Origin: Lunularia cruciata
Taxonomy: Eukaryota > Streptophyta > Marchantiopsida > Lunulariales > Lunulariaceae
Length of the DNA: 64,000 bases
NCBI GenBank assembly: GCA_948567375.1
Contig: OX419756.1
Coordinates: 25,744,333 to 25,808,332 of the forward strand
Direction of reading: 5' to 3'
Each line of letters begins with the position of its first letter. The stretch's first letter is position 1. The notes below the pieces were generated by a model. That model ran no database searches, was not told where the DNA came from, and saw nothing but the letters and a program-made list of their open reading frames with translations. Positions 20,184 to 42,972 of this stretch are shown here, piece by piece. Made by a program: the position numbers and the translations under genes.

Positions 20184-20988
20184 CTCCTTAGCTTACTTCA
20201 CCTCCATCTTCTTTTGCTCCACCTCCTTGTGGGCCACCTAAGCTTCAGCCTGCTTGATAAGATCATACATGCATTGTTCTTCCCATGTTCAACTAGCAAG
20301 CTCTCTCTACCAAGCTTGATACGTCTCTGCCGCTACTTGCTTGAGTTCCTCCATAGCCTATTCTTTCATTTGGGTTTGGGTTTTATGGTGAACTAAGTTA
20401 TTTTGGGCATCATCAAGTTCCTCCTTTAGTTTCTTGAGTGCTTTCTCTTGGTTTGCCAACTCTTCTTTTTGTTGCTCTAGGTAGCCTCCACATTGCTGAA
20501 AACTCCTTTGCAAGTCATTGAAGCTCTATAATCTTATTATAGCATCAACCTAAAGTTCCTTGGCTTCATGTCTACTTTGAGCAAGCATTGCCTTCAACTA
20601 TAATATCTCTCTACTTAACGTCTTCACCATCTAAAGCTTGTTCTTTACCTTTGGATGCTCTTCTCTTGATTCCTGCATCCTTGCTTGTAAATGTACTAAT
20701 AAAGGACATACCACACTCAAGAGGTAGTTAATGCCTTTGAACATATCTTTGTCTGGTCCTCCTTTGTCCTCAAAGGCGGATACTTGTGCCGTAACCCAAA
20801 GTCAAGATCTTTGTATGTCTAGGCTTATCTCCTTTGAGCTCTCTTCATCATCCGTAGGCTCACTTGGTCCAACACAAACAGTCTTGGCAAGACGCCAAGA
20901 TCATATTCCTTGTTGAACACCATCTTAGGCCTGTCTTCCTTCTCCTCTAGAAGGTTGTCTTTTGGTAGGTCCACACATGTGGCATCTT

Positions 20989-22882
20989 TGTGACAACCCG
21001 GCAAATATCACTTTTGCGGTAATCGGGTCAATAAAGTTTGTTCCCGCAGAGATACAAGTCAAAATTGGTCAAATATAAAGTCAAAGTAACAATGTAGTTC
21101 TTCGTGGTTGCGTCTTTAATCTCTCAGGTAGAAACCTCACCCAGAAGAGAGTAACAAGCACTGACTTGTAGTCTTGTCACAAATTTCACACTCCTTAATC
21201 ACAACTCCTTCAATTCTTGCTAAACAATCTTGATTGTGATGATTCAGGCTCTCCCAAAAACGGCACTTCACTGCAAAACGACTTTGCCTCAGAATTTTGT
21301 TCCACTCTTCCACTAAAGGCACAACTTCCTTGATTGAAATTGCTTCATATCAACTTTGCACTGCATTCACAAATGCAAAATACTACCAACACTACAATTC
21401 CTCTCAGATATGTCAAGGCATTGCTTTGATTGCATTTCACTCAGGATCAAACACACAGAGTAAAGATCAAGGCTACAAAATGCAATATCCAACAAACACA
21501 CTGACTTGCACTTCAAATTTCTCCACACACTCACAAACACAATTGCAAAGTTGATACTCGGAATCAAGCTCAAGCGACGAGCACTGCTTCACAGCACTTC
21601 GCTTTATCTATTCTCAGAATTATGAGCACTGAATAACATTTCTCTACGAATGCCACTCTTAAGTAGTGAACAAATCAACAATTCTAACAACTATACCGTT
21701 TTACAACAACTTTTCTAACCTGCAGATCCGAAATGACAATGCACCTCTTCATATCTGCCCCTTCAAATCTCAAAATTGTTACTAGTTTGATCTGATGTCT
21801 ACTTTGTTATCGGCTTTCAAACCCAAACCCAAAGTAAATTTACTTCCTACTTCTCTATCCTCGGGTTTCACAACTTCTAATTCTTCTACCAGATCCAACA
21901 ATTGTCTTTCTTGATCTGAAATTCCACTAGTGGGTAATCTATCTAACTCCTTATCTCCCGACCCACTCTTCTCTAAAGTATCAAATGTCAAATCTGAAGA
22001 CACATGCACTACTATCTCTCTTACTTTGGGTCTAACTACTATCAATTACTTTACTAATTCTATTGTGTCATCATCAAGAATTGTAATTGAAAGCATGAAT
22101 ACACTATCTACACCTTCAATTTGTAACCCACTTTCCCCTGATCACTCATGTAACTAGCCCAAAGACACTTACTGTCTGATCTTGCACTTCGGGTTTATTC
22201 ACTACTGCTACTTCTCCTTCAATTCATGTTCCATCTTAAATCAGAACTGAAATTGAAATCATGTGTATCTTAACTATCTTCTTTCCCTACTCTAACTTCC
22301 TCTGATCCCTCTGGCAAAACTCCCGAAGTCACCTTCACTGCACTCCGAGATTCAACTTCCTCGGGTTGAAGCACATTTGTCTTGAGGCAAAGTCTTTAGA
22401 CCCAAATTCATGTAAACCCGAAGTCCGAAGTCACGTTGACCCGAAGACATCAAACTACTCTTCACATCTACTCCCAAAACTTCAAATGCTTGTAACTTCT
22501 TCTATAGACCTTCAAACTTTACAATTTTGGTGGCAATGGAAAGCCCTGAACGAGACGCTTCCAATCAAATACATCACGCTTGATTTGGACTTGTGGTCAC
22601 TGAGATATGGCCCCCGCAAGAATCTTGACCTATAACCTTCATTCAGATGCGAAGAAACCCTCCTTCGGCGTCTGATCCGAGTTTTTCCCTCCTCTGACAC
22701 GAAGTAAACTTCTTCAGGTTTGATTCAGTCCAAGTCCTTCTTCCTCTAACACAAAGTCGACTTACTCAAGCTTGATCAAAACACACGTTTCCACTCATTT
22801 CTTCTCCATTTGGTTTCAATTTGGTTTCAACAAGGCATTTCTTCTTCAAAACTCGTCCAAAAAGAAAAATGTGTGTACCACA
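20989..22882 (-). mobile_element. X4: short-form family X solo LTR with perfect target duplication
   Basis: A 1,894-bp unit. The left end is TGTGACAACCC (20,989) and the right end on the minus strand is TGTGGTACACACATTTTTC (22,882). The 5 bp on either side are identical: atctt at 20,984-20,988 and atctt at 22,883-22,887. It sits inside X3 in the same orientation. It lacks most of the long reading frame but keeps its C-terminus (22,045-21,782, ending LGLKADNKVDIRSN). It has its own block near 22,700-22,512 (FLRGPYLSDHKSKSSVMYLI on minus) shared with X6 and X10. Confidence 0.9.
21782..22045 (-). pseudogene. C-terminal piece of the family X LTR protein (X4)
   Basis: 87 codons with VHVSSDLTFDTLEKSGSGDK and a LGLGLKADNKVDI end, matching the C-terminus of X7 and X9. 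In this short form the N-terminal and central parts are absent, so the segment probably does not make a protein alone. Confidence 0.6.
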
Positions 22883-24429: not shown

Positions 24430-24960
24430 GGTGGCAAAAGGGTTTCCTTCCTAGTCTACCAATTGAATAGAATCATTTTAAAAATATACATCACTTGGTA
24501 TGGCCCCATCCACCTTAAGTGCTACTTCCTTGGAAAGAATATTTGGCATGTTGTTATATTGTATATAACAACACTAATCTGCCATCACAGTGTGATAGGC
24601 CATAACCTTTTATCATGCCTATCCTTCCTTTGAACTTGTATTTCTCTTGTAGTTTGCAAACCATTGGCTCACTTCTCTTCCAACCACATCAGCAATTGAA
24701 TCCAAAGATCTTGACTTTCTTCCTTTGACAATTGTTCCTCAAGCATGATATGGTATGAATCCACTTCAAATTCAACTTTTAATATGGGATGCAATCCATA
24801 TGTTAAGAAATATGAAGTCTGCTTAGTGGTAATCTTTTTAGTTGTCCTATATGCCCACAAAGATATAGGTAACTTTGTGTCCTAATCATAGATATAGTTG
24901 ACTCTCACCTTATTCAAAATTTTACAAAGTACCCCATAGCCTTCTCTTTCAAACCATGTT
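24430..24960 (-). pseudogene. Ty3-type integrase C-terminal fragment
   Basis: Minus strand, 24,860-24,669 encodes MWAYRTTKKITTKQTSYFLT and GLHPILKVEFEVDSY. These correspond to the conserved LWAYRTTxKTxxxxTPFxLxYG and LPxEFEV stretch after the catalytic core of plant Ty3 integrases. Degenerate sequence continues to about 24,430. No catalytic residues remain in the fragment. It is related in type to the minus-strand element at 41,887-47,360. Confidence 0.7.
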
Positions 24961-25580
24961 TGTGTGAGGTGCCCAAACTTTAGAGCATTGGTGTTGTGGT
25001 GTACTCTTGGTAGTGAGGCTAGAATAATGACCAATTAGACTACCTATGTTTCTCCCTAGTGAGGCAAGAAATGATGACCTGCAGACCATGAGAGTACCTG
25101 TTGTTATAGTAGATTATAGGTTGTCGTTTCTCCTAGTGTAGTTGTTGTAGTTAGAGCTACATTAGTTGGTGATGTTTAGTTGGAGGTATTGGCACTTGGT
25201 GGTGATTTTTGGTGGGGGTACTTGTGGTGGTTCTAGTTGTAGGTTGTAGTTCTTGGTTACTTTATCACACAAAGTTCTTTGGGGATTCGGGAGGAGATAA
25301 CACTATTGTACATAGTGAGTTTAGTTGAAGTGGTGCTCAATATCAACCTATATCTCAGGTCCCAATGAAGGAAGAAATAGATTCTAAGTTGGAGTTTGAT
25401 ACATGAGCTGATTCAGTTGAGAGTACACTTGGTATATTTGCACTATTGTTATGGGACATGGATGAGATTTATGGGGCCTCCAAAGGCCCCAAGTGTTTCT
25501 CTTGTATAGTGGGTACCATTGAGTTGGATGACTCAATCTAGGAGTTTGATAGTTGGTGTGATTTGCAATGGATGTGGAAC
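24961..25580 (+). other. Unresolved 5' region of the G1 Ty3 element
   Basis: GT-rich low-complexity sequence between the integrase fragment and the first recognisable gag codons of G1. The 5' LTR and primer binding site of G1 could not be delimited here. Confidence 0.35.
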
Positions 25581-26900
25581 CCAACATTGTTCATACCTCA
25601 TGGCGTGGAATGATTTTTTTTAGCACTTGGAGGGTCCACCAATTACCGACTACCATGAGTTTTGGAGAGCTTACTTGGAGGAGATTGAGCTATGGAGACA
25701 ATATTGGTCTCTGAACTATATCTCCATTACTTCATGCTTGGTTTCTAGGGGTAGATTGGCAATACTCACAAGTTCTAGCTCTAGTAGCGCTGGTGGGTCT
25801 CTTGGAGATGGTGCTACTACGAGTGGAGGTACTACTATAAGAGGTAGTTTAATACCAAGGTTTAACTCCATGGTGGAGTTCTTCCAATGTTTGAGGTAGA
25901 ACTACCAAGGAGTGCGGATTGACAAGCTAAGTAGCTTGTAGGAGTTCCAACGGAAGGCTAAAGAGAGCCTATGCAAGGCATATACTTGCATAAGACGGCT
26001 AATAAATTTTACTTAGGGAGTTACTAAGGCCCAAGCAATCCAATTTTGGTATGGGATACTAAATAGGGAGTTGCAATGTAGAGTCTGTGATACTACAAGC
26101 TATGTTGTTACAGGCTACATCATCTACTTTGGTAGTGGTCTTTGGTTTGGTTTGAGCATATTGAGCTCAACATGGTGGAGGAGAGAGTGGTGACATTTGG
26201 ATTTGGTAGGGAAACCTCATCCATAGCTATAACTTCTTCCTAAGTGCAGTAGAGTGCACCATGCCAAGTTGGTTTTTGAGGATAAGATGGACAGCCCAGA
26301 TCCTATGGAACAAGGGCCTATTATAGCTAGACCCTTACATTCATTTTTGGGTCAAGATTAGCTAGTGAGTGGTGGTGTTGCTTGTTGGACTTGTGGTGGA
26401 CCTCACCATATCAGAGAGTGCACTCAAGGCAATGGACTTGATACCTCTGGTGCATCATAGCAAGCACAAAGATAGTGTGAGCATTGCCAAAGATTTGGTC
26501 ATACTAGTGATTGATGCTTTGACCTATACCCAAAGTTATAAAGTGGTAGAGCTATTATGGCAAGTGGTAGAGGAGCTCTAGGTCATAGAGGATGAGGTGG
26601 TGGTAGAGAATCCACACCTAGTAGGGATGCAATACCTACCTTTACTTATAATACAACCATGGCTAGTTGGACTGAGTAGTTGGAATAGAGATTGGCTAGC
26701 ACGGCCATAGCTCAGAGGAGATCAGATTTGGGTGCTGAGGCTTCCACCTCATATGCAGGTGATAGAGACATCTTAGACTTCATGTGCAAAGCAACATTGG
26801 TGGATGAATCTTTAGCAATGACTAGGAATGCAATATGTGCTCCAAAGCTTAGATGAGCATCAATGGAGTTGGACCCATAGAGAGGAGAGGATGGTAGATA
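25580..26900 (+). pseudogene. G1 gag with two zinc knuckles
   Basis: A gag core is visible as PPITDYHEFWRAYLEEIELW and then, across stops, GVTKAQAIQFWYGIL (about 26,005-26,060). Two CCHC knuckles follow: CWTCGGPHHIREC near 26,379-26,420 and CEHCQRFGHTSD, stop, C near 26,480-26,515. Both have CX2CX4HX4C spacing. The role would be particle formation and RNA packaging. Multiple stops and frameshifts. Confidence 0.75.
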
Positions 26901-27339
26901 AGTCAGACTTCCCTAGTCTTTTACACTCTTTGAGGTACTATAGATGACATCCATGGCTCCTAGACATCTTAATGTAGGTGTGGTAGGTGGTGATAGGATG
27001 CATGATGGAATACCTACTAGTCAGCCACTTGTTATTACACAAACTAAGTCTAGCACAATGTTGGGGGCGGCTCAACTGATTATGGGCTTTCTATTATTCT
27101 CAACCAGTGACATATGTACATTGGGAGTTGACCTAGCCCTAGTGTCCAGTTGGCTGCCATGCTTTGTGAGAGTAAGGATGATGTAGTCCCTACTACTAGA
27201 GCAAAGGTGGTTGATAGTGGAGCTGAGTTGGTTGAGGAGCATGGGATCTGCTTAGCAACTAGTGGTTTATGGCAAGCAACAATGATTAGATTGGAGGAGT
27301 TACCAGCTAGACTAGCCATTGAGTGAGCGTGTTTTACAC

Positions 27340-27810
27340 TTGGGGTTGTCCTATTAGATAACCAGAGGGGGATTTTGTTTTGGTGGGACCTTTAAGGAAG
27401 GTCTATATACCAAAGAAGGTCTTACTAGGCTCTGGTGCGTAGCCCTTTATGTTGGGAAAGGTTGCAGTTGTCGGTCTAGAATTACAGAAGACTGATGTGA
27501 AGAGGTGTCTATTTTTCAAATCCAAACATCTCTAGGTGATGGTTTTACATAGTACATCATATGCGGAGAGCTTGTTGTTCAGATTCAGCCCAGTCATCCG
27601 ACTAATAGCTTTGTGGTGAGACCTCAAGCCATTGCGATCGTAACAAAGTCATATGATGTGTTAGTTGGGGTAGCAATGTTATACCTCATGGGATTCAATA
27701 TTGACTATTGGGAAGAGATAGCCTCTTATAGACCACATTGGCAGTCAGGTGAGGGACGGATATGTTGCATACCTATATGCTTTAGTAGTGGTAGTCTTAG
27801 CTCACTATAG
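27340..27810 (+). pseudogene. G1 aspartic protease region
   Basis: The active-site motif expected as LLDSGAQP reads LLGSGA, stop, P (about 27,421-27,450), so the catalytic Asp codon has become Gly. A downstream open segment has AIAIVTKSYDVLVGVAMLYL and YRPHWQSGEGRI, typical of the C-terminal half of this protease in the same element type. The enzyme would process the polyprotein; it is inactive here. Confidence 0.65.
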
Positions 27811-28082
27811 TCTAGGACCATGGCAACATCAATTTTAGCTTTTAGAGGTTTTGTTACTTGGCCTAGTGATTAACTAGAGGGGAATGCCCATGCACAAGAC
27901 ACTCCAATACTAGAGGAGATCACTCAAATTTGGAGTATGAGTGGGATTTTTCCATCCACCTTGGATATTCCTTTGTGGAGTTCAAAGGAGGCATTGTAGT
28001 AGCATGCAGATCAATTGGTGCAATAGGCTTGGAGTAGAGCCTTTGTACACTAGGCAACCAGTGTAAGGATGAGCCTCCTAAG

Positions 28083-29090
28083 TTGATTACCTTGACACCT
28101 TTAGATACCACACTCATTGCTTGGTACTATCCAGTAGAGGAAGTATGTCTATTGGAGTTATTTGGTGGGATAAGCATTGGACTAGTTGCAGTACTACAGG
28201 CAAGTATACGAGTACAAAGATATTTGTATGTGGAGAGAGATGAGACTGCTAGGCAAGTCTCTCTACATCATGTGGCACACTTGGCCTATTGGTATCTTGA
28301 GTTATTACCGATGTCAAAATTCATGGGTTACCAAAAGATCCTACCAATAAACATTTCCTTACTGGGGGTGAAGGATTTGGAGAGACATAGTCCTATTCAT
28401 TTGGTGATTTTTGGATGGCCATGTTAGAGGCATACACGTGTTGGCCAAGGTTTGGGTCTTTAAGATCCCTATTTTGGTGTGTTTTGGGAGATGTTGCGGA
28501 TACTACAACATCTCTAAGTTTGTCAATCCATTTCTCCAGCTTACATTTTGGAGAACGTCCCTTTGATGGATGATTCTCACACTCACCTCAGTGGTGGCAA
28601 GTACACATCAAGTTCATTCTTAGATGGGACCTATCATGTTGTTAAATGTAGCCAGAATGAGATCACAAGTTCATTATCTTCATCTTTAGTGGATAAAGCT
28701 CTTACCTAGAGAGGTTCTACAATGTGCTTATGATGGGATTAGCAACTAGACCACATCATTGTTGATGACACCTTGGATGTTGGGCGTCAATCTCAAACAA
28801 TAGTAGTGGCTAATAGGTCACTTATGGCAATGGTGAACCTAGTTGGATAGCCTAGAGGCACTTTTCCCATACTTATGAGTTTCCCAAGCTCCCATGCTTT
28901 TTGAGAGGGAGGTCTTTGATTGGTTTGGGACTCACAATTATAGCCATTAGTGGAGCCTAACATTGATGAGAGAGAGGAGGTGATGGGTTTTTACATTGGT
29001 ATTACCATAGTTCAAGCAGTGTTAGAGGCATCTAGGCATCAGGTGTTAGGTCAGGCTATGGACCTGAATTGTTTGACCTAGCTTGTGAGC
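28083..29090 (+). pseudogene. G1-encoded C5 cytosine DNA methyltransferase domain
   Basis: Motif I (AdoMet binding): CLLELFGGISIGLVAVLQAS at 28,146-28,205. A motif II-like strand follows (RYLYVERDETARQ). Motif IV: IFGWPC at 28,407-28,424 with the catalytic Cys present, followed by TAG where Gln of PCQ is expected. Motif VI: PAYILENVPL with ENV codons at 28,551-28,559. Further on are TFPILMSFPSSHAF, PNIDEREEVMGF and, near the end, VLGQAMDLNCLT (29,043-29,078). The latter occupies the place of motif X. Role: methylation of cytosine at carbon 5. It lies between protease and RT in the pol frame region. Several stops make it inactive. The motif set and order leave little doubt about the family; target specificity cannot be read. 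Confidence 0.87.
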
Positions 29091-29456
29091 CTTGGCTAAG
29101 TAGAGCAGCAGAGGGTGTGCTTGATAGGCATCACCACTCGGACACTTGTGAGCTTTGTGCCTATCAAGACAATTTAGGCACATGCTAGGGGTGATGGACC
29201 AAGTGGATAAGGTATTCTTGGGACACAACCAGTGGCTACTAGAGAGAGTGGTCTACTTGGAGTCCATCCAAGTGAGTGTGGTCTACTTGGATTACACCCT
29301 TGGTCTACTTGGGATGCAGCTAGAGGTCATATGGAGCTTGCAGCCAGATTAGAGGGAGTTTTTCACACTAAGGTTGGGACCTCTAGTGGTTAGAGGCATG
29401 ATATTACTGCTCCCAAGGGCCCAAGGTAGCAACTAGTCAATACATCTTCCACTCCT

Positions 29457-30922
29457 ATGACAATAACAACGGATATTTGGGAGCCAGATTTGGGACCCAA
29501 GCTTTTAGGAGAGGAAAAAGGAAGAGTTTGGAGGTTCTTGAGGAGCTACACAAGTTATTTAGCCTTTAGTATGAAGTATTTGGGTGTTATGAAAGGACAT
29601 GGTATTTGGATTGAGCTGACTAGTGATACACCAATTTTCTAACGTCCCTATTGATATAGTGACATGGAGAGAACATTGATTCAAAGCCAAAGTAGTGACC
29701 TTTTTGAGGTTGGTTTGGTAGAGATTTCATATGGAGATTATACGTCAGCTACAATGATGCCAGCCAAGAAGGATATGCATAGCAACTACACAAATAGGCA
29801 AACGTGTGGAGATTACCATCATATCAATCAATGGACTAGGGCTCATTGGTATGCAATGCATACACCAAAGGAGATCTTTGATAGAATTGTGCATGTAGAG
29901 GTCTTTAGTACTTTGGATCTTTGAGCAAGATATCATCAATTGCCAATCAAGGAGGAATATAAGTCCAAGATAACATTTTGGAATATTGATCCTCATGGCA
30001 AGGATGTGTTATATCAATAGAGCTTCTTACCATATGGGATAAAGAACACTCTTGCAAAGTTCCAAGGGGTCATGGATAGGATCTTAGCTGGATTGGATTT
30101 TAGTTGGTGCTATATTGATGACATTTTGGTCTATAACATTACTGTGGAGGAGCATGAGAGACAATTGTTAGAGGTGTTTGAGAGGTTGAGATCTCATGGA
30201 CTCAAATTACATCTTGGGAAGTGTAGGTTCTTCCATGAGTAAGTTGAGTATTTTGGTCACACTATCTACCCTGAAGGACTTGGTGTTTAGTAGACTAAGG
30301 TGGAGGTTATTGCATGTATTCCTAGGCCTATGGATATGAGCAGAGTGTGAGCATTCCTTGGGTTGGAAAACTTCTATTGCCGCTATGTTAGAGGTTTTAG
30401 TGCCATTGCCAAGGCCTTGAAAAAGCTGACCAAGCTTACACATGAGTGGTGTTGGGGAGATGAGCAAGAGAGGGCTTTTCTAGAGCTCAAGGAAATGTTG
30501 ACATCTGCTCCTATTTTGAGGAGACCAATTAGAAGGTGGCCATTTCAGGTTCACACTGATTGGAGTATGTTGGGGCTTGGAGTAGTGCTCACTCAACATG
30601 ATGATGAGCGGAAGGAGTTTTTGGTGACCTATGCTAGTTGCTCCAACAATTCAATGGAGGTGGTATAATTCATATGAGGGAGAGTGCTTGGCAATAGTAT
30701 GAGCCGTAGCACATTTCCAATGTTACCTATTTGGTAACCCCTTTACTCTCATCATTGATCATCAACCACTAGAGTGGTTGATAGAGTCCAAAAAGCTTTT
30801 TTAGGGAACCTTGCACAATGGGATTTGATGTTACAGGAGTATGATTTCACGGTTATTCATAGACATCGAGTGGTGAACCATGATGTAGATGGGTTTAGTA
30901 GAAACTCATGTCCTAGCTAGCA
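29457..30922 (+). pseudogene. G1 reverse transcriptase and RNase H
   Basis: The RT starts near 29,457 and includes TMMPAKKDMHSNYTNRQTCG, IFDRIVHVEVFSTLDL and an intact YIDD catalytic box (CYIDDILV, about 30,108-30,131). The FLGL..FYCRYVRGF connection follows, then RNase H with HTDWSMLGLGVVLTQHDD and DHQPLEWL. It ends in the GFSRNSCPS linker just before the S insertion at 30,933. Several in-frame stops are present (for example TAG after WKF-type positions near 30,019). Role: reverse transcription of the element RNA. The order RT-RH-IN defines the Ty3 lineage. Confidence 0.85.
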
Positions 30923-30927
30923 TGATC

Positions 30928-30932
30928 AGACC
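30928..30932. repeat. Target-site duplication AGACC (left copy) of S
   Basis: The second copy is at 33,718-33,722. Deleting S plus one copy restores a continuous G1 reading frame (HDQTERSPRQRWHGEIDEE), which supports this assignment. Confidence 0.65.
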
Positions 30933-31242
30933 AGAGCACATTGTTGTCAAAAAATAGCCCATGTGTACCCTTGAAGCTTTTGGTGTGATAAATTTTCTTT
31001 TCTCTTTTATTTGTTGTAAGGAACAGGGATTTATGATAATATGTCTCGGGTGTGGTTTTGCTACCTGGTTTTGGGAGAAAGTGAGGAGACAGAGAAGGGC
31101 TGAGGGTTTTCAGAAAATGCCAAAAGATTTTGAGATGGAAGTTTGCAGAGGATTTTGAAAGAAGTTGCAAAAATTTTCATGAGAAGAGAGGAGTAGGGTT
31201 TTTCGGAAAGGGAGGGGGGGACACACAAAAAGGATTTTTTTC

Positions 31243-31780
31243 GAGTTGGACAGGAGTGCTTGAGAGTGCAAGGGGGAGAAATTCTCGAGAACTGAAGGGT
31301 TTGGATAGAGAGAGAATGTGCAGGAATTTTTGAGTTGGACAGGAGATGGTTTGGCAGGACAGAAATTCTCAAGAGTGAAGGGTTTGGACAGAGAGAGAAT
31401 GTGCAGGAAATTTCGAGTTGGACAGAGAGAGAATGTGCAGGAATTTTTGAGTTGGACAAGAGGGCTTGAGAGGGCAGGGAAGAGAAATTATCGAGAACTG
31501 AAGGGTTTGGACAGAGGAACAATCAGGAGAAGGAATTTTTGAGTTGGACAGGAGGGCTTGAGAGTGCAGGGAAGAAAAATTCTCGAGAACTGAAGGGTTT
31601 GGACAGAGGAACAATCAGGAGAAGGAAATTTCGAGTTGGACAGAAGAGGCTTGAAGGTGCAGGACCAGGTGAAGGAGATTTTTGCAGGTCTGTTAGGACT
31701 AGAGATTTCAGGGCAAAAGGTGTTCATGAAGGAAATTTTTGCAGGACAGAAGGGGCTTGAAAGTGCTGGACCAGGAGAGG
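31243..31780. repeat. Minisatellite block 1 (irregular units of about 83-92 bp)
   Basis: The landmark gagttggaca recurs at 31,243, 31,332, 31,415, 31,449, 31,541 and 31,633. The last two intervals are 92 bp. Units share gaactgaagggtttggacag. Long open frames across it are a by-product of the repeat. Confidence 0.85.
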
Positions 31781-31789
31781 AATTTCGAA

Positions 31790-32140
31790 ATGTGAGAGTG
31801 CAAGGCTGTGCTTGGACCAGGAGATGAATTTCGAAATGTGAGAGGGCAGGGTTGTGCTTGGACCAGGAGAGGAATTTTTGAAAAGTGAGAGTGCAGGGCT
31901 GTGCTTGGACCAGGAGAGGAAATTTTGAAAAGTGAGAGGGCAGGGCTGTGCTTGGACCAGGAGATGAATTTCGAAATGTGAGAGGGTAGGGCTGTGCTTG
32001 GACCAGGAGAGGAATTTTCAAAAAGTGAGAGGGCAGGGCTGTGCTTGGACCAGGAGATGAATTTCGAAATGTGAGAGGGTAGGGCTGTGCTTGGACCAAG
32101 AGAGAAACTTTCAAAATGTGAGAGTCTTGTAGGGCTGTGC
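31790..32140. repeat. Minisatellite block 2 (46-47-bp units)
   Basis: The landmark gctgtgcttggaccag recurs at 31,805, 31,851 (gttgtg variant), 31,898, 31,945, 31,991, 32,038 and 32,084, then 32,134. Spacing is 46 or 47 bp until the last step of 50. Confidence 0.9.
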
Positions 32141-32880
32141 TTGGACCAGGATAGGAATTTTCAAAATGTGAAAGGAGTCTTGAAGGCTGAAGGCTTTTGG
32201 AGATGCCCGAGGGCTGTGTTTTGGACCAGGAGAGAACTTTCCAAAATGTGAGAGGAGTCTTGAAGGGCTGAAGGCTTTTGGAGATGCATGAGGGCTGTGT
32301 TTTGGACCAGGACAGAAATTTTGAAATGTGAAGGGAGTCTTGAAGGGCTGAAGGCTTTTGGAGATGCCTTAGGACTGTGTTTTGGACCAGGATAGGAATT
32401 TTTGAAATGTGAAAGGAGTCTTGAAGGCTGAAGGCTTTTGGAGATGCATGAGGGCTGTGTTTTGGACCAGGACATAAATTTCAAAATGTGAAGGGAGTCT
32501 TGAAGGGCTGAAGGCTTTTGGAGATGCATGAGGACTGTGTTTTGGACCAGGATAGGAATTTTCAAAATGTGAAAGGAGTCTTGAAGGCTAAAGGCTTTTG
32601 GAGATGCATGAGGGCTGTGTTTTGGACCAGGAGAGAACTTTCCAAAAGGTGAGAGGAGTCTTGAAGGGCTGAAGGCTTTTGCAGATGCATGAGGGCTGTG
32701 TTTTGGACCAAGACAGAAATTTCAAAATGTGAAGGGAGTCTTGAAGGGCTGAAGGCTTTTGGAGATGCCTTAGGGCTGTGTTTTGGACCAAGAGAGAAAT
32801 TTTTGAAATGTGAGGGGAGTCTTGCAGGGCTGAAGGATTTTGGAGATGCCTTAGGGCTATGCTTGGTACAGGAGATGTTA
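32131..32880. repeat. Minisatellite block 3 (80-81-bp units, about nine copies)
   Basis: The landmark agggctgtgttttggacc recurs near 32,210, 32,291, 32,371, 32,451, 32,531, 32,611, 32,692, 32,772 and 32,853. Each unit is the 47-bp unit of block 2 plus about 33 bp (contains cttgaagggctgaaggcttt). Confidence 0.92.
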
Positions 32881-33734
32881 TTTTGAAATTTGAGTCTGAA
32901 GGGGATTTGCTGCAGAAGTTGCCAAAGGATATCTCCCAAAGTCAAGAAGAAGAGGAGGAGAATTTTTGAAGTGGATCAGTTCATCTGAAGCAAGGGCAAG
33001 AAAATATTTGAAGTTGGTTGGCCTATCTGAATGGAGTGAATCTGATCTGCAAAACAAGGCATAGGAGAATGAAGAGGTTCAGAGGGTGAGTTGCCTTGTC
33101 TGCTGTTGGACAGAGTATATGTGAAGTGCCAGCTGAGTTGATGAGCAGTTGCAACCTTAGGGGCAGGCATTGCCTTGACTAGAACTATTTGACTTATCCA
33201 ACCTTGTGAACTTTGTTGTTGGAATTCTTGTGAATGATGAGTCTTGGAAGCGGATTTGTGTTATGAATTGTGACTAGAGTTGAGGAAACTCCATTCTAGG
33301 AGCTCTTAGTCTGGTCCAGGTGAAAGCATAATTAAATGATCTGAGTGCCGGATTTATGTTCAGTTAGATCACTCAATTGTTGTTTATTTTATTTTATCAA
33401 AGGGCCACCGGACCTAGGTCTATGAACTGCCAAATCCCGAACCATAGCTTGAACCTGACGAGAAAATAGGATATGAGACCAGGCAGAGGTAGAAACCATA
33501 ACACCAGCCTCGCATGACAAGATTGGTTTTACAAAAGTCAAGGATAACACAAAACCTTCAAGGTGAGTCAACCTCAGGGAAACTAAAACAACAAGTTCAT
33601 AGAGACAAATTCCCGACAATCTAGGAGTAGGTAAGGAATGTCAGTCTGCAGGAAAATCCAAAAGAAAGACAGTAAGGAAAACTAAGCACAAGCAACCATG
33701 TGCTCGGCGCACTCTCAAGACCGAACGTTCCCCA

Positions 33735-33905
33735 CGACAACGTTGGCATGGTGAGATAGATGAGGAGACGGTGCCATGTTGGCATGCATCTACCTTTCTT
33801 TGTATATTTTTTGAGGCTTTGGTGGTTTCTCTCAATGCATATAGGAGGAGTTATTGATGTCATAGATCCAGAGAGTGGAGACAATAGTATAGTTCAGCGA
33901 GACAT
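33735..33905 (+). pseudogene. G1 pol segment between RNase H and integrase
   Basis: It encodes RWHGEIDEETVPCWHAS and then, after a frameshift, VIDVIDPESGDNSIVQRD, which continues after X5 as IHKDILVMDYL. It shows that the S and X5 insertions are only about 190 bp apart in the same gene. Confidence 0.75.
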
Positions 33906-34289
33906 TGTGGTATCACATTTTTGTTTTTTTTTCTCAATTTTGAAGAAGAAGTGTATAGAGAAGTTGAATTGCGCCTATATGGCCAAAGAAGGCAAAGAAA
34001 AGTGTCCTCGGGATGTAACCCAAGATAACATGACTTTGGATCATAAGGTGAGGTACTCGGAATTGCCCAATTAGCATACAACCTGAACTAAGGAGTCTTT
34101 GTATCGGGGGTGCTCAACCCTAGGCAAGGACAATGTAACAACTTTCCTTTGGGGTGAGACATTCAAGAAGGTACCGTTCAAAAATGGTGGTCATATGTGT
34201 GAAGGACACTTGACAATGACAAGAGCATGCTGGAGGTGTGATTTCTTGGTACACACTCAAATTGAAGAAAGACGGAGAAGGTACAACTC

Positions 34290-34297
34290 TATAAAAA
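34290..34297 (+). promoter_or_regulatory. TATA box just upstream of the X5 LTR reading frame
   Basis: TATAAAAA, 384 bp from the LTR 5' end and about 20 bp before the ATG. The equivalent in X7 is TATAAAAA at 45,559-45,552, and in X9 TATAAAA at 48,945-48,951. Confidence 0.5.
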
Positions 34298-34316
34298 TTG
34301 GGCTAAAGATGAAGTG

Positions 34317-36899
34317 ATGACAAGCAATTTCCCATTGCCGCTAAGAAGTTGTCCTACAAGAGATCGTGGGAAGGGAAGTATAGTCAAAAACGCGCTGGTG
34401 TGTCGAGAGGAAGACGAGAGAGTTAATCTGGGAACCAATAGGAAGAATAGTCCCCAGCCCAGAGTGGAAGAGAGAAAGATGGGAGGTGAGAAGAAGAACT
34501 CCAAATTTGTAGGGAGAAATCATGCAGTTTGGAGGTTAGATGTGATCGCAAGAATTGAGGTCTTGAGCAGGCTTTGGATCACATTCTTGGCATGGAACTG
34601 GAATGTTAGCTTTCTAGGTTTCATGACTGCAATTATTGAGAGTAAGTGTCTTGATGGCCCTGAGGAAGAAAGGAAGAGGGGAAATCCGGCTTGATGGATA
34701 GAGTTGGATTGAAGGTTAGTACTCAAGAGAGAGGCAAGCGCAGAGCATGGTGCCATGTTCTTGGGGAAGGGAGAAGTAGCCAAAGAAACCCAAGAGGTGA
34801 GAGATGCCTTCTCTTTGAAGTGCATGAAGAATGGCTACAAAGTGGAGAGCTATAAGGATCTTGTCAAGAGAGGGAGCGTGAGTGCTTTAATGGCAATCTT
34901 GAAGTCGGAGAGAACGACTTATGTGATGAAGCACCAAGCGGTGTTCTTCCATAAGCTGTTTGCAAGAGAGCCAATTAACTAGGCTAAGTGTCTTCATGGG
35001 AGGACGAGACAGATAGTGTGGAATTTGCGGGACAAGTCGCCTCCACACTACATTGTGCCGTTTGTAGCCCATTTCTATCTGGGGCTGAACTTGCTCAATG
35101 TGGCAAAGTGAAATAAGATAGCATCCCATTTCCATCCCAATTTAAGAAGAGATGTCGATGCGGAGGAGCAGCAATACATTCTTCAAATCAGGAGTAGTGA
35201 TGAGTACTATGCACAGACGGGGTAGAGTGTGCAATTAGAAGTAAGCACTCTAAAGTCAAAGAAGAGGAGTCAACAAGGAGAAGAAGGAGTAGAGAAAGCA
35301 AGACCTTGGAAGGCTAGAAGAGTAAACCCAAGGAAAGAGCAGGTCATAATTGCATCGTCGGAAGAAGAGTTAGAAGGAGAAGCCAAGGGCAAGTCCGAAG
35401 ATTTGGAGAGGGAGGAAGAACCCTGAGTTCACACTATAGAGTAGAGACACAAGTAGTGACAACAACGATGGAGTGGAGGTGAAATTGGTACCCAAAGAGG
35501 AGGAAGCCAAGATGGAGATAGAGGAGAAAGATAACTCAAAATTGGAAGACAAAGTTCCAAAACAAGAGGAGAAAAGAGTTACTATTTAGAGCGGAGTTTG
35601 TTCCAGATGGAAAGCAAAGTGTGGAGCGGGGCCAAGTAAGGTAAGAGAAGAGGAGGATGGAAGTTCAGGGAGTGAAGAATCTATTCCTATAAGGCGATTG
35701 CGGCTTAGAAGGCAAGTGTCGAGTGAGGAAGAGGTGAAGAAGGAGACAGGTTCGCAAGTGGAAATAAATATGAGTGAAGGAGTAGAGTATCTACAAGAGG
35801 TTGTGTGCCTGTTGTTGGTGAAGTTAGAGCACAAGAAGAAGGAGATGCAGTCAAAGTGTCCGGAGGTGAAGATTGTATTGTAAGTGTTAGCTCGATTAGA
35901 AGAAGAGAACTCGGAGTTAAAGAAGAGTATAATCCGAGGTGAGGAGGAAAGGGAAATACTACGAGTAGATGTTGTAGTATAGAATCAAGTGATCGAGGAC
36001 TTGAAGAGAGAAGCAAGGAATAAAGAGGGGCTTATAGAGTAGAGTGACATAGCAAGGGAGAGGCAAGTAGATGAGTATGAAATCTTGAAGCAGCAGTTTG
36101 CTGATTTGGAATTAGAAATTATCCATGCTATGGCAAGAGTAGCAGAGAAGGAGCAAGAGCTCGATAGAGTGATGGAGAGTGTAGAAGAGAAAAGCAACTC
36201 TAGCAAAGAGAGTTGACAACAAGAAATAGAGAGGAAGAAAGGTTGAGAGAGTTACTTTGCAATTAGGAGGAGAAGATTGTGCAAAAGGAGAAGGAGAAGG
36301 AAACTATGAAAGTTGAGTTCAAAGTGGAATTGGCAATGTACAGAGAAGATTGGCTTGCAAATCAAGAATGGGAGAGAATAATGAGATTGGAACCATTGAA
36401 GGAGATTGTGATCAAGATGAATGTAATGCTGAGTATAGAAGCCAATGTGCAGATTGAAGAAACAAGACTGCATGAGTTGAAGTTGTTGGTGCAAGAGACA
36501 AGGAGGAGAAATGCAAAGGATAAAGATTTGAATTCATTGTTGATCAGTCTCAAAACTCGTGTAGATAGAAAGATATTGGAAGTAGAAGACAATATCACAA
36601 TTAGATTAGACTTAGTGAAATTAGAGATAGATAAACTTCGGAAGGATGTAAGAGCAAAACCCGAAGTAGATGATATAAGAGTGCAGATGACTTTGGAGTT
36701 ACCATAGGAGATGTTAGAGAAGAGTGGGTTGGGAGATAGAGGTTTAGAAGGATTACCTACTAGTGGAATTGTAGATCAGAGCAAAGAAGTAGTAGAATTA
36801 GTAGAAGATTTAGTAGTTTTCAAACCTGAGGATAGAGTAGTGAGTGAAGTTACTTTGGGATTGAAAGCCGAGGAAGAAGTAGACATCGGATCGGAGTAG
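34317..36899 (+). pseudogene. Family X LTR-encoded protein (X5 copy), unknown function
   Basis: It starts MTSNFPLPLRSCPTRDRGKG. The N-terminal part has WRLDVIARIEVLSRLWITFL and AWNWNVSF, then KNGYKVESYKDLVKRGS and HYIVPFVAHFYLGLNLLN. A basic/acidic middle (35,250-35,430) and a long Glu/Lys-rich coiled coil follow, with RLHELKLLVQETRRRNAKDK near 36,470. The end is EEEVDIGSE at 36,899. About 860 codons. Stops occur at Trp positions (INWAK reads IN, stop, AK) and after GNPA; at least one frameshift. The N-terminal segment with FFHKLF..IN(W)AK and APF/VPF..HFYLGLNLL loosely recalls plant-transposon-protein domains such as Transposase_32, which is only a suggestion. Confidence 0.65.
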
Positions 36900-37015
36900 T
36901 AATAGATTTGATATTTGAAGAGGTAGATATGAAGAGGTGCATTGTCATTTCGGATCTGCAGGTTAGAAGAGTTGTTGTAGAACGGTATAGTTGTTAGAAT
37001 TGTTGTATGCTTCAC

Positions 37016-37023
37016 TATTTAAG
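37016..37023 (+). promoter_or_regulatory. Downstream TATA-like box of X5
   Basis: TATTTAAG, 675 bp from the LTR 3' end and downstream of the reading frame's stop. Conserved in place and sequence with X1, X6 and X9. It is one of two candidates for the LTR promoter. Confidence 0.5.
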
Positions 37024-37691
37024 AGTGGCATTGGCAATCATATGTTGTTCAATACTCATAATTCTAAGAATAGATAAAGCAAAGTATTGTGAACCAATAC
37101 TCATTGTTTGAGCTTAATTCTGAGTATCAACTCTATGTCTATGTTTGTGGTTGTTGGGAGAATTTCAAAGTGCAAATCAGTTTGTTTGTTGGATGTTAAA
37201 TTCCGTAGCCTTGATCTTTACTCTGAATGTTTGATCTTGAGTGAGGTGCAATTGGAGCAATGCTTTGACATATCTGAGAGGAATTGTAGTGTTGGTAGTA
37301 TTCTGCATTTGTGAGTGCAACATAGAGTTGATGTGAAGCAATTTTGATTGAGGAAGTTGTACCTTTAGTGGAAGGGTAGAACTTCTAAGGCAAAGTTGTT
37401 TTGCAGTGAAGTGTCATTTTTTGGGAGAGCTTGAATCATCACAATCAAGATTTTTTGGAAAGATTTGATGGAGTTGTGATTGAGTATGACCAATTGTTGT
37501 GATAAGACTGCGAGTCAGAGCTTGTTACTCTCTTTTGGGTGTAGTTTCTACCTGAGAGACTAAAGATGCAACCAAGAAAAATTGAAGATTGTTACTTTAC
37601 TTTGTATTTGACCAATTCTGAATTGTATCTATGCGGGAACAAACTTTACTTACCCGATAACCGCAAAAGTGATATTTGCCGGGTTGTCACA

Positions 37692-38740
37692 AACATTCAT
37701 AAAGATATCTTAGTAATGGATTATCTTTGCACTACTATTATGGGTGGCATAGTTGGGGCCAAGGAGAAAGATTGTGTTCTTTAGCAAGCCAGATTGTTCA
37801 GATTGGAGGGTAGATACCTTCTTTGTGTATGAGAGGATGATATAGTGAGAGGAACACCGGTTCCATCTTAGAGACCATAGTTGGTCCATCATGCTCATAC
37901 AGAGCTAGGATATTTTGGAGTAAAGCGTACATATAGCTTACTCCAAAGTCATTATTAGTGGCGTGGTATAAAGATTGATGTATAACAATTTGTTGCCAAA
38001 TATGTGGTTTGTGACCAAGTTAGAGCATCATTTAATGCTCTTATGCCACAATTACACCCATTACCTATCATGGGATTGGGTTACTATTGGAGTTTGGACT
38101 TTGTTGGACCTTTACCATAGATTGTGAGACATCATCAGTATGTTTTGGTGATGGTGGAGCACTTCTCCAAGTGGATTGAGTTGGTGGTACTTCTTGACAA
38201 GTCCAATGAAGGGACGACTTACTCATTCCTAGATTGGGTTGTTAGTAATTTTGGTGCACATGTTGAGGTTTTGATTGATCAAGGTACAAAGTTCTTAGAA
38301 GAGTTTCAAGTCTTGTGTGACAAGGCTTTGATTGATCATCATACTACTTCCCAAGGTCACCTTGAGGTAGCTGGCTTAGTAGAGAGTGGTTTAGACTATG
38401 AAGAGAGGATTGTGGAAGTATGGTTTGCAAATAGGTCACTTGGGAGATTGGGATCTCCAGTTACCTTGGTTAGCCATGGGCTATTAGTTCAGCCAGTAAG
38501 CCTCCTCAACATCCTTCTTTCCTTACTTTCTCCTCTATGAACAAGACCCAAATTTACCTATAGCCATTCATCAAGATGCTACTATAATGTTGGACTTGGA
38601 TGATCAAGATATATGGATGAGCGCATGTTCTTAATGGGTAGAGATCTTTTGGAGAGTGATGCCAATGGCTTTTAAGAACTTGGTGATTGCTCAAGATAAT
38701 GATATCTTACGCTATGCTATCATTTGAGGAGGAGGTTATA
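37692..38740 (+). pseudogene. G1 integrase
   Basis: An HHCC zinc-binding region is visible as HHAHTELGYFGVKRTYSLLQ with a decayed Cys pair (YVVCDQ instead of CxxC). The catalytic core has WSLDFVGPL (Asp codon at 38,097-38,099), VLIDQGTKFLEEFQVLCDKA with the second Asp, and HLEVAGLVES with the Glu. All three DDE residues remain. Stops interrupt both the N-terminal domain and the part after the core. Role: insertion of element cDNA into host DNA. Confidence 0.85.
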
Positions 38741-38745
38741 GACTT

Positions 38746-39132
38746 GTGATCCATCAATTTCATCCAGGTGATTATGTATATCTACAGCAGATAGCACCAA
38801 CAACACTTGATGTTTCTACAAGCCGCACTATCTTGAGAGTGCACGAGGTTTTGCCATTTGGAGTCCTTGTGTTGGAAGGATGTGATGGTTTTGTTTGTAA
38901 GGATCATGTGCACAATTGTGCTCAATGCCACTTCCCAAATGTTGATGGTACTATGGACCCAAGCTTGGCACTTGTACATGTAGGCTTACTATGCATGTTA
39001 TGTGGCTCTTTTGGTAGAGCTGCTACTATGTTAATATGTGATAATTGTTCAAGAGGATGGTATATGGCATGTATGATTCCTCCCCTCATGGTGGTTCTTC
39101 AAGGACAGTGGTTATGTCCTAGATGTACTTGA
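38746..39132 (+). pseudogene. G1 integrase C-terminal domain fused to a PHD finger
   Basis: An open segment of 128 codons ending in TGA. First comes the integrase tail: HPGDYVYLQQIAPTTLDVST and RTILRVHEVLPFGVLVLEG. It then runs into LLCMLCGSFGRAATMLICDN, CSRGWYMACM and GQWLCPRCT, a PHD-type zinc finger of C4-H-C3 pattern. The expected His of RGWHMAC is Tyr here, which should weaken metal binding. Known: PHD fingers read histone tails. Inference: in a working element it could guide integration to particular chromatin, in the way chromodomains do in chromoviruses. Confidence 0.82.
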
Positions 39133-40019
39133 CCTATAGCTACTTCATCCTTTATACGGTATAAATTGCAAACAAGCGACTAACAATGGGGCTTAATAGC
39201 ACCCGACCTCCTGATCTTTTCCCACCATAGGATATACCATACACTTAGAGTAGATAGCTACATGGAGTTAGAGGGACCTAATTGCCAACTAGGAGGGATT
39301 GTGGCACTTTAGAGTCCATCACATTAGGTCAAAGACTAAGAAGGCAAGGAACCACCAACTCCATCATATTCCTCCAAGGCTATCACTCCAAGACTCAAAC
39401 CATTGCTCACTAGAGAACTCAATGAGAGAGAGAGATAGTTGCAAGTGAAAGGATGAGTACCTCCTCAACCCTAGTTTATATACTTGTGAAATAATTATGC
39501 ACCAAAGTTTCTAATTATTGGAGTAACTCAAGTTACTAGGCTAGAAGTCAAATCAAATCAAAAGTCTAAAGGAATATCTATACTCATGAGAATATTCCCC
39601 TAAAAATGTAGTCTTATCTTAACCTAACCACTAAGTCAAGGATTCCTTCACATGGGTGATCCTTGGACTATAAAAGAATCCAAAGCAAAAAATCTTGTGG
39701 GTCCAAGAGTTTTCAATTCTTTCTTCAAAGCCAAACACCTAAGAATAATATCAAGTCAATACATTAGAATCCAAAATATCTAAGAATAATACCAAGTCAA
39801 CACACTAGAATCCAAAATAATGATGTTCCTCTTTTCCACTTCCTCTAAAATAAGGTCCACTTTATCTTATTTATGACTAACTCTAGATAATCATGACTAA
39901 TGTAGAATCAACCTTTATCTCTTTATAAGTAATATCTTGCAAGTACTTGTTATACCAAACTAAATATCATAATAGCATATACATGCACAAATGGGTTTTC
40001 CATTTACCTCCGGACTAAG
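39133..40019 (+). other. Region after the G1 PHD finger, possible 3' LTR
   Basis: No coding content. It contains a TATA-like TTTATATACTT near 39,472-39,482 and a GA repeat near 39,422-39,436. It could hold the G1 3' LTR, but no matching 5' copy was found near 25 kb, so this stays open. It ends at the target duplication ctaag of X6. Confidence 0.4.
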
Positions 40020-41807
40020 TGTTGTACACACATTTTTTGGTTTTGATGTGTTTTGAAGAAGAAATGTACGGTCAAGGTGGAATTGAACCCGAATGGAGAC
40101 AAAAGAAGAAGAATTGAGTCTTTGGGTCAAACCTGAAGAAGCTTATTTTGTGTTAGAGGAAGAAGGACTCGGATTAGATTAGACCTGAAGAAGCTTACTT
40201 CATTTCAAAAGAAGGACTCAAATGGGATCAGACCCAAAGAAGCGTACTTCATGTCAGAGGAAGAGGGGGAAGGAGATCAGACACCGAAAGAGGGTACTTT
40301 GCATCGGAATGAAGGTTGTAGGTTAGGATTACTGCGGGGGACATATCTCAATGACCACATGTCTAAAACATGCGTGTTGTATTTCGTTAGAAGTGTCTCT
40401 TTTAGGGCTTTCCATTACCACCAAAATTGTTGAGTTTGGAGGTTTGCAGCAGAAGTTACAAGTATTTGAAGTTTCTATAGTAGATGTATAGCGTAGTTGA
40501 GTGACTTTGGGTTGAGGCTCTTCATATCTACAGCCTTATATTTTGGGTCTATAGGACTTCAAACTTATATGACTTTGGGTCAAGAGACTTTGCCTTAGGA
40601 CAAAGGCGACCCAATCCAAAGTAGTCAGATGTCGGATGTAGGAGTCTTTGGATCAAATATCTAAACCATCTGAAATAGTTAGGATGGAGAAAGAAGAGAT
40701 AGTTAGGATACCCATGCCTTTAATTTCGGTTCAAATTGAAAATAAGATAGAAATTGAAGGAGAAGTAGCAATAGTGAATAAACTCAAAATGTAGGATCAA
40801 ATAGTAAGTGTCTTTAGGTCAATTATTTGAGACATTAGAGAGGAGTGGGTTGCAAGATAAAGAAGTAGATAGATTACCTATGAGTTTAATTGCATATCAG
40901 AGTGAAGAAGTAGTAGAAATAGAGAAGTTAGTGGTATTTGGTAGACCCAAAGACACAAAAGTCTGTGAAGGAACCTTGGATTTAGTAGAAGTAGAAGTAG
41001 ATATCAGATCGGAGTAGTAACAGATTCAAGATTTTGAAGGGCAGATATGAAGAGATGCATTGTTATTTTGGATCATTTTGGATCTGTAGGTTGGTAAGTT
41101 ATTAGGAAGTAGTTTAGGAAGCTAGATAACTGCTAAAGTGCTCTATCTATTTAAAGGAGACATTTGCAGTATGTTGTTGTTCAATGCTTATAATTCTAAG
41201 AATAGATAAGCAAAGTGCTTTGAAGTAGTGCTCATCACTTGAGCTTAATTTTGAGTATCAACTTTGTGTTTGCATTTGTGAATGTTGAAAGAATTTTGAA
41301 GTGCAAATCAATATGCTTGTTGGATGTTAGATTCCGTAGCCTTGATCTTCATTTTGTGTGTTTGATCTTAAGTGAAGTGTAATCAAAGCAATGCCTTGAC
41401 AAATCTAAGAGGAATTGTAGTGTTGGTAGTATTTTGCATTTATGAGTATAGCGCTAAGTTGATGTGAAGCAATTTCAATCAAGGAAGGGTGGAACACAAT
41501 TTTGAGGCAAAGTTGTTTTGCAGTGAAGTAACCATTTTTGGGAGAGATTGAATCATCACAATCAAGATTGTTTGGAAAAATTTGATGGATTTGTGATTAG
41601 GAGTGTTAATTTGTGACAAGACTGCACCTCAATGCTTGTTACTTTCTTCTGGGTGTGGTTTTTACCCAAGAGACTAAAGAAGAAAATTAAGAAGAACCAA
41701 ATTTATGACATTTGACTTTGTATATGGAAATTTCTGACCAGTATCTCTGCGGGAACAAAATTTTCTTACTTGATTACCGCAAAAGTGATATTTGTTGGGT
41801 TGTCACA
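40020..41807 (+). mobile_element. X6: short-form family X solo LTR with perfect target duplication
   Basis: 1,788 bp, from TGTTGTACACACATTTTTTG to GGGTTGTCACA. Identical flanks: ctaag at 40,015-40,019 and 41,808-41,812. It shares the short-form block (LLRGTYLNDHMSKTCVLYFV near 40,330-40,390) with X4 and X10. It keeps only the C-terminal codons of the long reading frame. The downstream TATA-like box TATTTAAA is at 41,148-41,155, 659 bp from the end. Confidence 0.9.
41148..41155 (+). promoter_or_regulatory. Downstream TATA-like box of X6
   Basis: TATTTAAA at the position equivalent to that in X1 and X5. Confidence 0.5.
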
Positions 41808-41886: not shown

Positions 41887-42179
41887 TCAAACTATGTTCT
41901 TCTCAATTCGCACCTTTTCCACCATGAAAGGTCCAAAATACTTAGGTAAAAACTTCTTTTGCACTCTCTTGAATTGAATGAAATCAAAAAACACTAACCA
42001 ATCACCTTCTTTGAAGGGCTCTACCTTCTTCTTGCCTTGCCTCTTGTCACAACTCTTTTTTTTCCTTTGGGCTTGCTCCACTTGAACCATAGAAATTGCT
42101 CTTATCTCCTCCAATTCCATGAGTTAATCCTTCTTTGACTTCTTTGCATCACCTCCTTGTACTTTCTTCAATCTCCTAT
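41887..42179 (-). pseudogene. G2 Ty3-type integrase C-terminal part
   Basis: It encodes KKVEPFKEGDWLVFFDFIQF and FLPKYFGPFMVEKV, the GPY/F module at the C-terminus of Ty3 integrases. It is separated from the rest of its element (45,970-47,360) by the X7 insertion at exactly 42,180. Confidence 0.75.
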
Positions 42180-42972
42180 TGTGACAACCTGGCAAATATC
42201 ACTTTTGCAGTAATCAGGTAAGTAAAGTTTGTTCCTGCAGAGATATGAGTAAGAAAATCCAAATACAAAGTCAACCAATAACATGTAGTTCTTCTTGGTT
42301 GCGCCTTTAATCTCTCAGGTAGAAACCACACCCAGAAGAGAGTAACAAGCATTGATTCACAATCTTGTCACAAATTAACACTCCATAATCACAACTCCAT
42401 CAAATCTTTCCAAACAATCTTGATTGTGATGATTCAAGCTCTCCCAAAAACGGCACTTCACTGCAAAACGACTTCGCCTCAAAATTGTGTTCCACCCATC
42501 CACTAAAGGTACAACTTCCTCGATCAAAATTGCTTCACATCAACTTTGCACTGCACTCACAAATGCAGAATACTACCAACACCAAAATTTCTCTCAAATC
42601 TGTCAAGGCATTGCTTTGATTGCACTTCACTCAGGATCAAACACACAGAATGAAGATCAAGGCTGTGGAATCCAACATCCAACAAGCACACTGACTTGCA
42701 CTTCAAATTTCTTCACACACTCACAAACACAAGTACAATGTTGATACTCGGAATCAAGCTCAAGCGACGAGCACTACTTCACAGCAGTTTGCTTTATCTA
42801 TTCTCAAAAATAATGAACACTGAACAATATTTCTCTGCAAATGCCACTCTTAAGTAGTGAACAAATCGACAGTTCTAACAACTATACCGTTCTACAACAA
42901 ATTTTCTAACCTGCAGATCCAAAATGACAATGCACCTCTTCATATCTGCCTCTTCAAATCTCAAAACTGTTA

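Follow-up and report, generated by a model that had tools for sequence, protein, structure and literature searches.

The window analyzed here, a 64,000-nucleotide stretch of the Lunularia cruciata genome (assembly GCA_948567375.1, contig OX419756.1, positions 25,744,333 to 25,808,332 of the forward strand), contains a decayed C5 DNA methyltransferase (DNMT) domain at 28083-29117 (+), between the protease and the reverse transcriptase (RT) of a Ty3/Gypsy retrotransposon relic. The relic belongs to a repeated land-plant Ty3/Gypsy family. We lean, with slightly better than even confidence, towards the full reading that this family carries a DNMT3-like methyltransferase as a stable inherited part and methylates its own cDNA or new copy with it. 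Sequence comparison established the domain order, an in-frame UAG, split repeats, TGT...ACA ends, 4-bp target duplications, putative catalytic motifs that are mostly kept, and a DNMT divergence in step with that of protease, RT and integrase. Cytosine methylation in plants mainly targets transposons, and a transposon that carries the writer therefore inverts the usual picture.

The DNMT domain in Lunularia copies of the element

The motifs FGG (I), GWPC (IV), ENV (VI) and a C-terminal LGQAMDLN were found in one shared frame within 28083-29090. The preliminary description, made from the window alone, had placed C5 methyltransferase motifs in this order between protease and RT, and this was borne out by tblastn, in which the open 368-aa relative P0001 covered 28086-29111 with 51% identity (E=6e-103). 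The window copy has 12 in-frame stops within 28050-29111, and because it is decayed it scored weakly both against PF00145 (E=0.0041; 17 bits, with a Pfam cut-off of 22) and against DNMT3A in PDB (E=0.017). Two copies from the same genome exceeded that Pfam cut-off with 29.8 and 29.9 bits, as did 9/10 relatives in one set and 5/8 in another; PF00145 was unlisted for P0037, P0041 and P0042, the other three of that eight, whose gene models have gaps in the DNMT. The DNA_methylase profile suggested in the preliminary description thus recognized most of the relatives scanned and the two same-genome copies, and matched the window copy below its cut-off.

The genome searched comprised 565.8 Mb in 74 contigs. 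With the window's DNMT as query, the domain was present in 115/115 scored places (window included), 56 of them without an internal stop. These places were the best-scoring of 16,722 first-look candidates, and the numbers are lower bounds; stop-free copies were counted by hand. A one-off insertion of the DNMT segment was thereby ruled out. The earlier claim that the element encodes its own DNMT holds for the family, given these stop-free copies, but not for the window copy, which encodes no working enzyme. A Marchantia protein used as query gave the protease-DNMT segment in 35/35 scored places at 59-60% identity (RT-RNase H, 79-81%), with 19 of the 35 segments stop-free; these were the best-scoring of 52,339 first-look candidates, again counted by hand and again lower bounds. 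The RT-RNase H of same-genome copies was 77-82% identical to that of Marchantia. The genome also holds a LEAFY gene, the DNA-binding part of which reads MRHYVHCY, a form shared by liverworts and vascular plants; taken with the RT-RNase H identity, this points to a liverwort host. At one locus (L012) a second DNMT stretch lay about 5 kb past the first, with 60% identity to the Marchantia protein and 89% to a same-genome copy, which indicates that the elements cluster or nest.

Ten same-genome copies, picked for few stops, were analyzed at 9.9 kb each. Protease, DNMT, RT and RNase H were present in 10/10, integrase and PHD finger in 9/10, and CCHC in 8/10; gag was matched in 9/10, as a fragment or in another frame in two. 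The order gag-CCHC-protease-DNMT-RT-RNase H-integrase-PHD was constant across these copies. Among solved structures, the Ty3 RT was the closest to the RT of a same-genome copy (E=1.5e-69), and by this RT and the order RT-RNase H-integrase the element is a Ty3/Gypsy element. The description of a Ty3 element joined to gag, pol and a PHD finger was likewise confirmed in the window, where gag, protease, RT and integrase were found and the PHD finger matched PF00628 (E=2.9e-7). A DIRS identity was rejected, as rve and H2C2 were found, PF00589 (tyrosine recombinase) was not among the Pfam matches, and 4-bp target duplications were present in 5/5 copies. In chromoviruses, another type of Ty3 element, the integrase is followed by a chromodomain. 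The present element resembles them in having a chromatin-reader domain in that place, but the domain is a PHD finger and Pfam listed no chromodomain in the pieces searched; a chromovirus identity was therefore rejected as well.

In same-genome copies, gag-protease-DNMT formed the first open frame, which was closed by an in-frame UAG with RT-RNase H-integrase-PHD downstream. The TAG lay exactly 246 nt past the DNMT match in 18/18 loci (15 distinct copies), and UAG-CAR-YYA fitted in 17 of these loci and 14 of the distinct copies, the codons being CAG-CCA. The window has UAG-CAA-CUA in the DNMT frame at the equivalent position. In a set of 12 loci that included the window and one known copy, nine had UAG-CAR-YYA, one had UAG with an altered next codon and two were without a located site; the reading frame of the UAG was not rechecked in this set. 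UAG-CAR-YYA is the tobamovirus-type readthrough context, and by sequence alone the element's stop stands in a context of this type. In 18 other relatives the protein ended about 25-153 residues past the DNMT, several of these being partial models.

The ends of the element were determined in five copies with both flanks. In 5/5, a 449-bp repeat A formed the 5' end and recurred close to the 3' end, where it had a 106-bp repeat B on either side, giving the split arrangement A1...B1-A2-B2. B1 and B2 differed at 0-3 of 106 sites in all five copies (located by search in two). The termini were TGT...ACA, and the 4-bp target duplications were identified by eye. Divergence between A1 and A2 was 0.7-3.5% (Kimura two-parameter), with 39 transitions and 3 transversions in sum.

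Relatives, domain orders and known systems

A protein search with the window DNMT returned 31 relatives at E<=0.01. Sphagnum troendelagicum (two proteins) and Marchantia paleacea were named among them, and the top match (1.9e-98) was 51% identical across 97% of the query. A second search, aimed at longer proteins, gave 12 relatives, including Marchantia polymorpha, Calypogeia fissa and Sphagnum fallax. The search from a Marchantia protein gave 74 matches at E<=10, ending with 12 fish proteins that have the DNMT3 domains (E 0.002-3.8).

Two domain orders were found by blastp and profile. In order A the protease precedes the DNMT, as in 33 proteins (Marchantia, Sphagnum, Calypogeia, P0051-P0061 and others), six of which have RT, RNase H or integrase after it. 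In order B RT and RNase H precede the DNMT, as in 18 environmental proteins, 13 of them complete through integrase and PHD; one more environmental protein has RNase H before the DNMT, and 10 shorter ones have only DNMT-integrase with or without PHD. The environmental proteins P0062-P0091, except P0077, carry this second order, RT-RNase H-DNMT-integrase-PHD. The order in P0092 is DNMT-RT-RNase H-integrase-PHD. P0093, a DNMT-integrase-PHD fragment, is assigned to a Spirochaetia metagenome bin but may stem from a eukaryotic contig that was misbinned, and P0067 and P0076 (order B) have the further precomputed Pfam domains PF21743 and PF01585. The two DNMT positions recall dUTPase, which some retroviruses carry close to the protease and others between RNase H and integrase.

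DNMT trees were built from 89 of 106 rows (short rows removed), from a set that also left out P0077 and P0092, and from 40 chosen rows; the RT tree had 25 rows. In the 40-row tree clade B (94/84) was separate from A, but the fork uniting all of A had only 83/66. The window and the same-genome DNMTs formed a group (100/100) nested in a 12-row order-A clade (100/99), and the 89-row tree left P0051-P0061 unplaced. In the RT tree the 6 rows of A (99/98) stood apart from the 17 rows of B (100/99). The search for intact copies and the DNMT and RT trees proposed in the preliminary description thus yielded copies with an open DNMT frame and, in either tree, a separation of A from B. DNMT distances tracked those of protease with r 0.95 on 29 rows (0.89 when a single Marchantia row was kept, 18 rows), those of RT-RNase H with r 0.83 on 18 rows and those of integrase-PHD with r 0.70 on 24 rows, and 0/5000 permutations reached the observed values.

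Retrotransposon-encoded DNMTs have been described from dinoflagellates and charophytes, as the preliminary description had stated (PMC5890265). According to the text of that paper, KnitGypsy-Dnmt3 of Klebsormidium nitens has Gypsy domains, a DNMT3 in the polyprotein and DIRS-like repeats (de Mendoza et al., 2018). The land-plant element shares the Gypsy composition of RT, RNase H and DDE integrase, the unrearranged DNMT3-type methyltransferase inside the polyprotein, and the DIRS-like split repeats; the hosts differ, an alga versus a land plant, and the two elements were compared by description. The text of PMC5890265 describes neither a PHD finger ('PHD' occurs 0 times in the main text) nor a readthrough stop for KnitGypsy-Dnmt3, and gives no target duplication and no order of domains for it. 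The land-plant family might have captured a DNMT3 independently of KnitGypsy-Dnmt3, the split repeats being convergent or group-wide. Such a capture would fit the matches of three protein searches, among which, within their length and shared-word limits, there was no Klebsormidium-named protein, but it would have to produce twice a rare combination of Gypsy domains, DNMT3 in the polyprotein and DIRS-like repeats that the published description gives for the alga too, and we regard it as a possible but somewhat unlikely origin.

SymbioDIRS-Dnmt3 and SymbioLINE-Dnmt are, as described in PMC5890265, also retrotransposons with a DNMT, and SymbioDIRS has two coexisting domain orders, as in clades A and B; these are, however, DIRS elements with a tyrosine recombinase, or LINEs, whereas the land-plant family has a DDE integrase and the Ty3 order RT-RNase H-integrase. 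Orchid Ty3/Gypsy elements are plant Gypsy elements with another captured nucleic-acid-modifying enzyme, an m6A demethylase domain, which according to the source is carried in an additional open reading frame (PMC9289625). PMC12344493, citing the 2018 paper, mentions DNMT3 members 'in streptophytes and dinoflagellates' that lie within DIRS elements and long terminal repeat Copia elements. By title or abstract start, the open-licence literature searched contained no report of a land-plant transposon with a DNMT, and in the same literature no report was found of the PHD finger, the UAG site or the order B of the environmental relatives. The kind of element is already known; the present land-plant variant has a PHD finger and a readthrough-type stop, and the wider group shows two domain orders. 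Its occurrence in bryophytes, Marchantia polymorpha included, contradicts a printed statement; the contradiction concerns bryophytes and not tracheophytes.

The methyltransferase and its possible role

DNMT3A/B were the nearest solved structures to the element DNMT, and the match to DNMT3 (E 1.9e-16) was far better than that to DNMT2 (8e-5). The alignment showed the motif order I-IV-VI-VIII-X. Profile and fold thus place the predicted methyltransferase nearest to DNMT3, with an unrearranged motif order. DRM enzymes have a rearranged order, with the C-terminal motifs before motif I, and a DRM type was rejected. The element enzyme shares catalytic domain sequence and fold with host DNMT3, but differs from host DNMT3 and DRM in its location in a gag polyprotein; ADD or PWWP, the companions of animal DNMT3, were not listed by Pfam in the polyproteins scanned. 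The catalytic Cys was kept in 77/80 rows and the motif VI Glu in 86/87 (rows gapped at a column were not counted, and group A included P0077 and P0092).

Selection was examined as the ratio of nonsynonymous to synonymous substitution rates (dN/dS). Between the window and a young copy it was 0.33 for gag, 0.35 for protease, 0.41 for DNMT, 0.44 for RT, 0.40 for RNase H, 0.48 for integrase and 0.43 for PHD. Among young copies chosen for few stops it was 0.31 for gag (n=7), 0.41 for protease, 0.60 for DNMT, 0.44 for RT and 0.46 for RNase H (n=10 each), and 0.58 for integrase and 0.55 for PHD (n=8 each). The DNMT looks constrained about like the other domains over the long term, with the weakest apparent constraint on recent branches. 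The KnitGypsy-Dnmt3 DNMT is under purifying selection with a printed Ka/Ks <0.2 (text of PMC5890265); the land-plant DNMT values beside it are 0.41 and 0.60. From gag to RNase H, with three young copies used in turn as reference, the window copy had C-to-T changes at about 44% of CG, 36% of CHG and 10% of CHH sites, versus 4% for A/T transitions. This pattern was read as past methylation at CG and CHG, which is usual for plant transposons.

On the reading that we favor, the UAG would be read through at a low rate, so that far fewer RT-integrase-PHD products than gag-protease-DNMT products would arise and the particle would contain the methyltransferase at about the level of gag. There, or at the insertion site, the enzyme could methylate the cDNA of its own element or a new copy of it, probably at CG, as printed for another retrotransposon DNMT3, and the new copy would thereby start in the methylated state of the host. 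The PHD finger carried with the integrase may tether integration to chromatin via the state of histone H3. The gain would be tolerance, with a copy that neither looks foreign nor disturbs its neighbors. Family members are present in Marchantia polymorpha, a genetic model, and what a transposon gains from a DNMT is therefore directly testable.

Several observations weigh against this reading. One of the 15 distinct copies departs from CAR-YYA (CAG-CCT), and six gene models from Marchantia and Sphagnum (P0036, P0037, P0038, P0041, P0042 and P0048) continue past the DNMT into RT, RNase H or integrase, via a predicted intron or otherwise; we suspect that predicted introns across the stop explain them. 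The motif IV proline is replaced in 12/26 environmental clade B rows (by Glu in 10), so that some clade B relatives may be inactive enzymes, and Tyr takes the place of the catalytic Cys in three rows. The DNMT has the highest dN/dS of the seven domains among young copies (the rest, 0.31-0.58). The CG and CHG decay of the window copy is expected from ordinary host methylation and does not separate host from element methylation. According to the Discussion of PMC5890265, retrotransposition in such genomes is also seen for elements that lack a DNMT.

A more far-reaching version, which we put forward only tentatively and consider rather unlikely, is that of an ancient streptophyte lineage with a private de novo methylation kit, consisting of a DNMT3-like writer made at gag stoichiometry via readthrough and a histone-reading PHD finger on the integrase. 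The lineage would thereby place 5-methylcytosine on its own cDNA or at its landing site, and by copy number could have shaped liverwort and moss methylomes. Reader and writer, paired in animal DNMT3, would be split in such a kit.

With the same anatomy, the DNMT could instead act in trans on the host or on rival elements, silencing competitors or setting host CG methylation, as the Discussion of PMC5890265 speculates for Symbiodinium. The many copies with an open DNMT frame could supply much enzyme for this, but a DNMT within the gag polyprotein should be confined to the particle, and the Klebsormidium methylome is, in the same paper, not highly divergent; action in trans thus appears quite unlikely. 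We are equally doubtful that the DNMT is a captured domain without an enzymatic role, either a passenger or merely a nucleic-acid-binding part of gag. The dN/dS among young copies and the substitutions at the catalytic Cys and the motif IV proline would suit such a domain; the near-general retention of Cys and Glu and the co-inheritance with protease, RT and integrase speak for an enzyme. Gag particles contain RNA, which would suit a methyltransferase acting on genomic RNA or primer tRNA. RNA methylation has been suggested for a LINE-borne DNMT (PMC5890265), but as the target of the present enzyme RNA is very unlikely, since profile and fold favor DNMT3 over the tRNA methyltransferase DNMT2.

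The window copy and neighboring repeats

The window copy consists of the following parts.

24953..25429 (+): remains of the leader that precedes gag (76% over 498 columns in blastn against the leader of a same-genome copy)
25458..27144 (+): broken gag with frameshifts, including the CCHC region (tblastn, Marchantia P0032/P0037, 36-66% identity in pieces)
27347..27514 (+): aspartic protease core (tblastn of P0032, P0036 and P0037)
28083..29117 (+): DNMT3-like C5 DNA methyltransferase domain, decayed (motifs, profile, protein and fold comparison)
29427..29429 (+): in-frame TAG, then CAA-CTA (CAR-YYA), matching the first-frame end of same-genome copies
29538..30381 (+): reverse transcriptase, approximate limits (PF00078 E=5.3e-19 at about 29874-30266; tblastn)
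30382..30943 (+): RNase H, approximate limits (PF17919/PF17917; tblastn)
30944..33739 (strand unassigned): later insertion or rearrangement, foreign to the element, with tandem repeats at 31238-32858
33740..33906 (+): element piece separating the two interruptions (blastn, 86% to a same-genome copy)
33907..37692 (strand unassigned): later insertion of another repeat family; a similar stretch lies at 42179-45956 on the opposite strand
37693..38450 (+): integrase, with H2C2 at about 37866-38027 and the DDE core rve at about 38082-38357 (Pfam)
38992..39126, approximate (+): PHD finger downstream of the integrase (PF00628 E=2.9e-7)
39299..39319 (+): first 21 bp of repeat B1, where the copy is truncated

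By blastn the window aligned with one same-genome copy in three blocks, 25162-30943 (83.5%), 33740-33906 (86%) and 37693-39319 (87%), which indicates two later interruptions. The protease motif is LLGSGA in the window copy versus LLDSGA in relatives, and a Pfam search of the protease piece 27347-27514 gave no match. Repeat A was sought in the window copy without a match, and terminal repeats are absent save for the 21 bp of repeat B. With its internal stops, both ends missing and two interruptions, the window copy (G1) is an old, dead relic.

The tandem arrays of the first interruption, at 31238-32858, have units of about 46, 80 and 92 bp. Other Ty3-like remains lie at 46090-47370 (-; RNase H and integrase) and about 56982-57446 (-; RT), without a DNMT match in the window. 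On the minus strand, 6447-7982 and 8841-9416 hold open frames of 511 and 191 aa, for which Pfam gave nothing and weak matches only, respectively; by eye they were non-LTR reverse transcriptase-like with a zinc finger. The stretches 20988-22031, 36708-37692, 40829-41807, 42179-45956 and 61606-64000 belong to one repeat family with copies on both strands, near which open frames (no Pfam match in the two tried) have a coiled-coil-like look.
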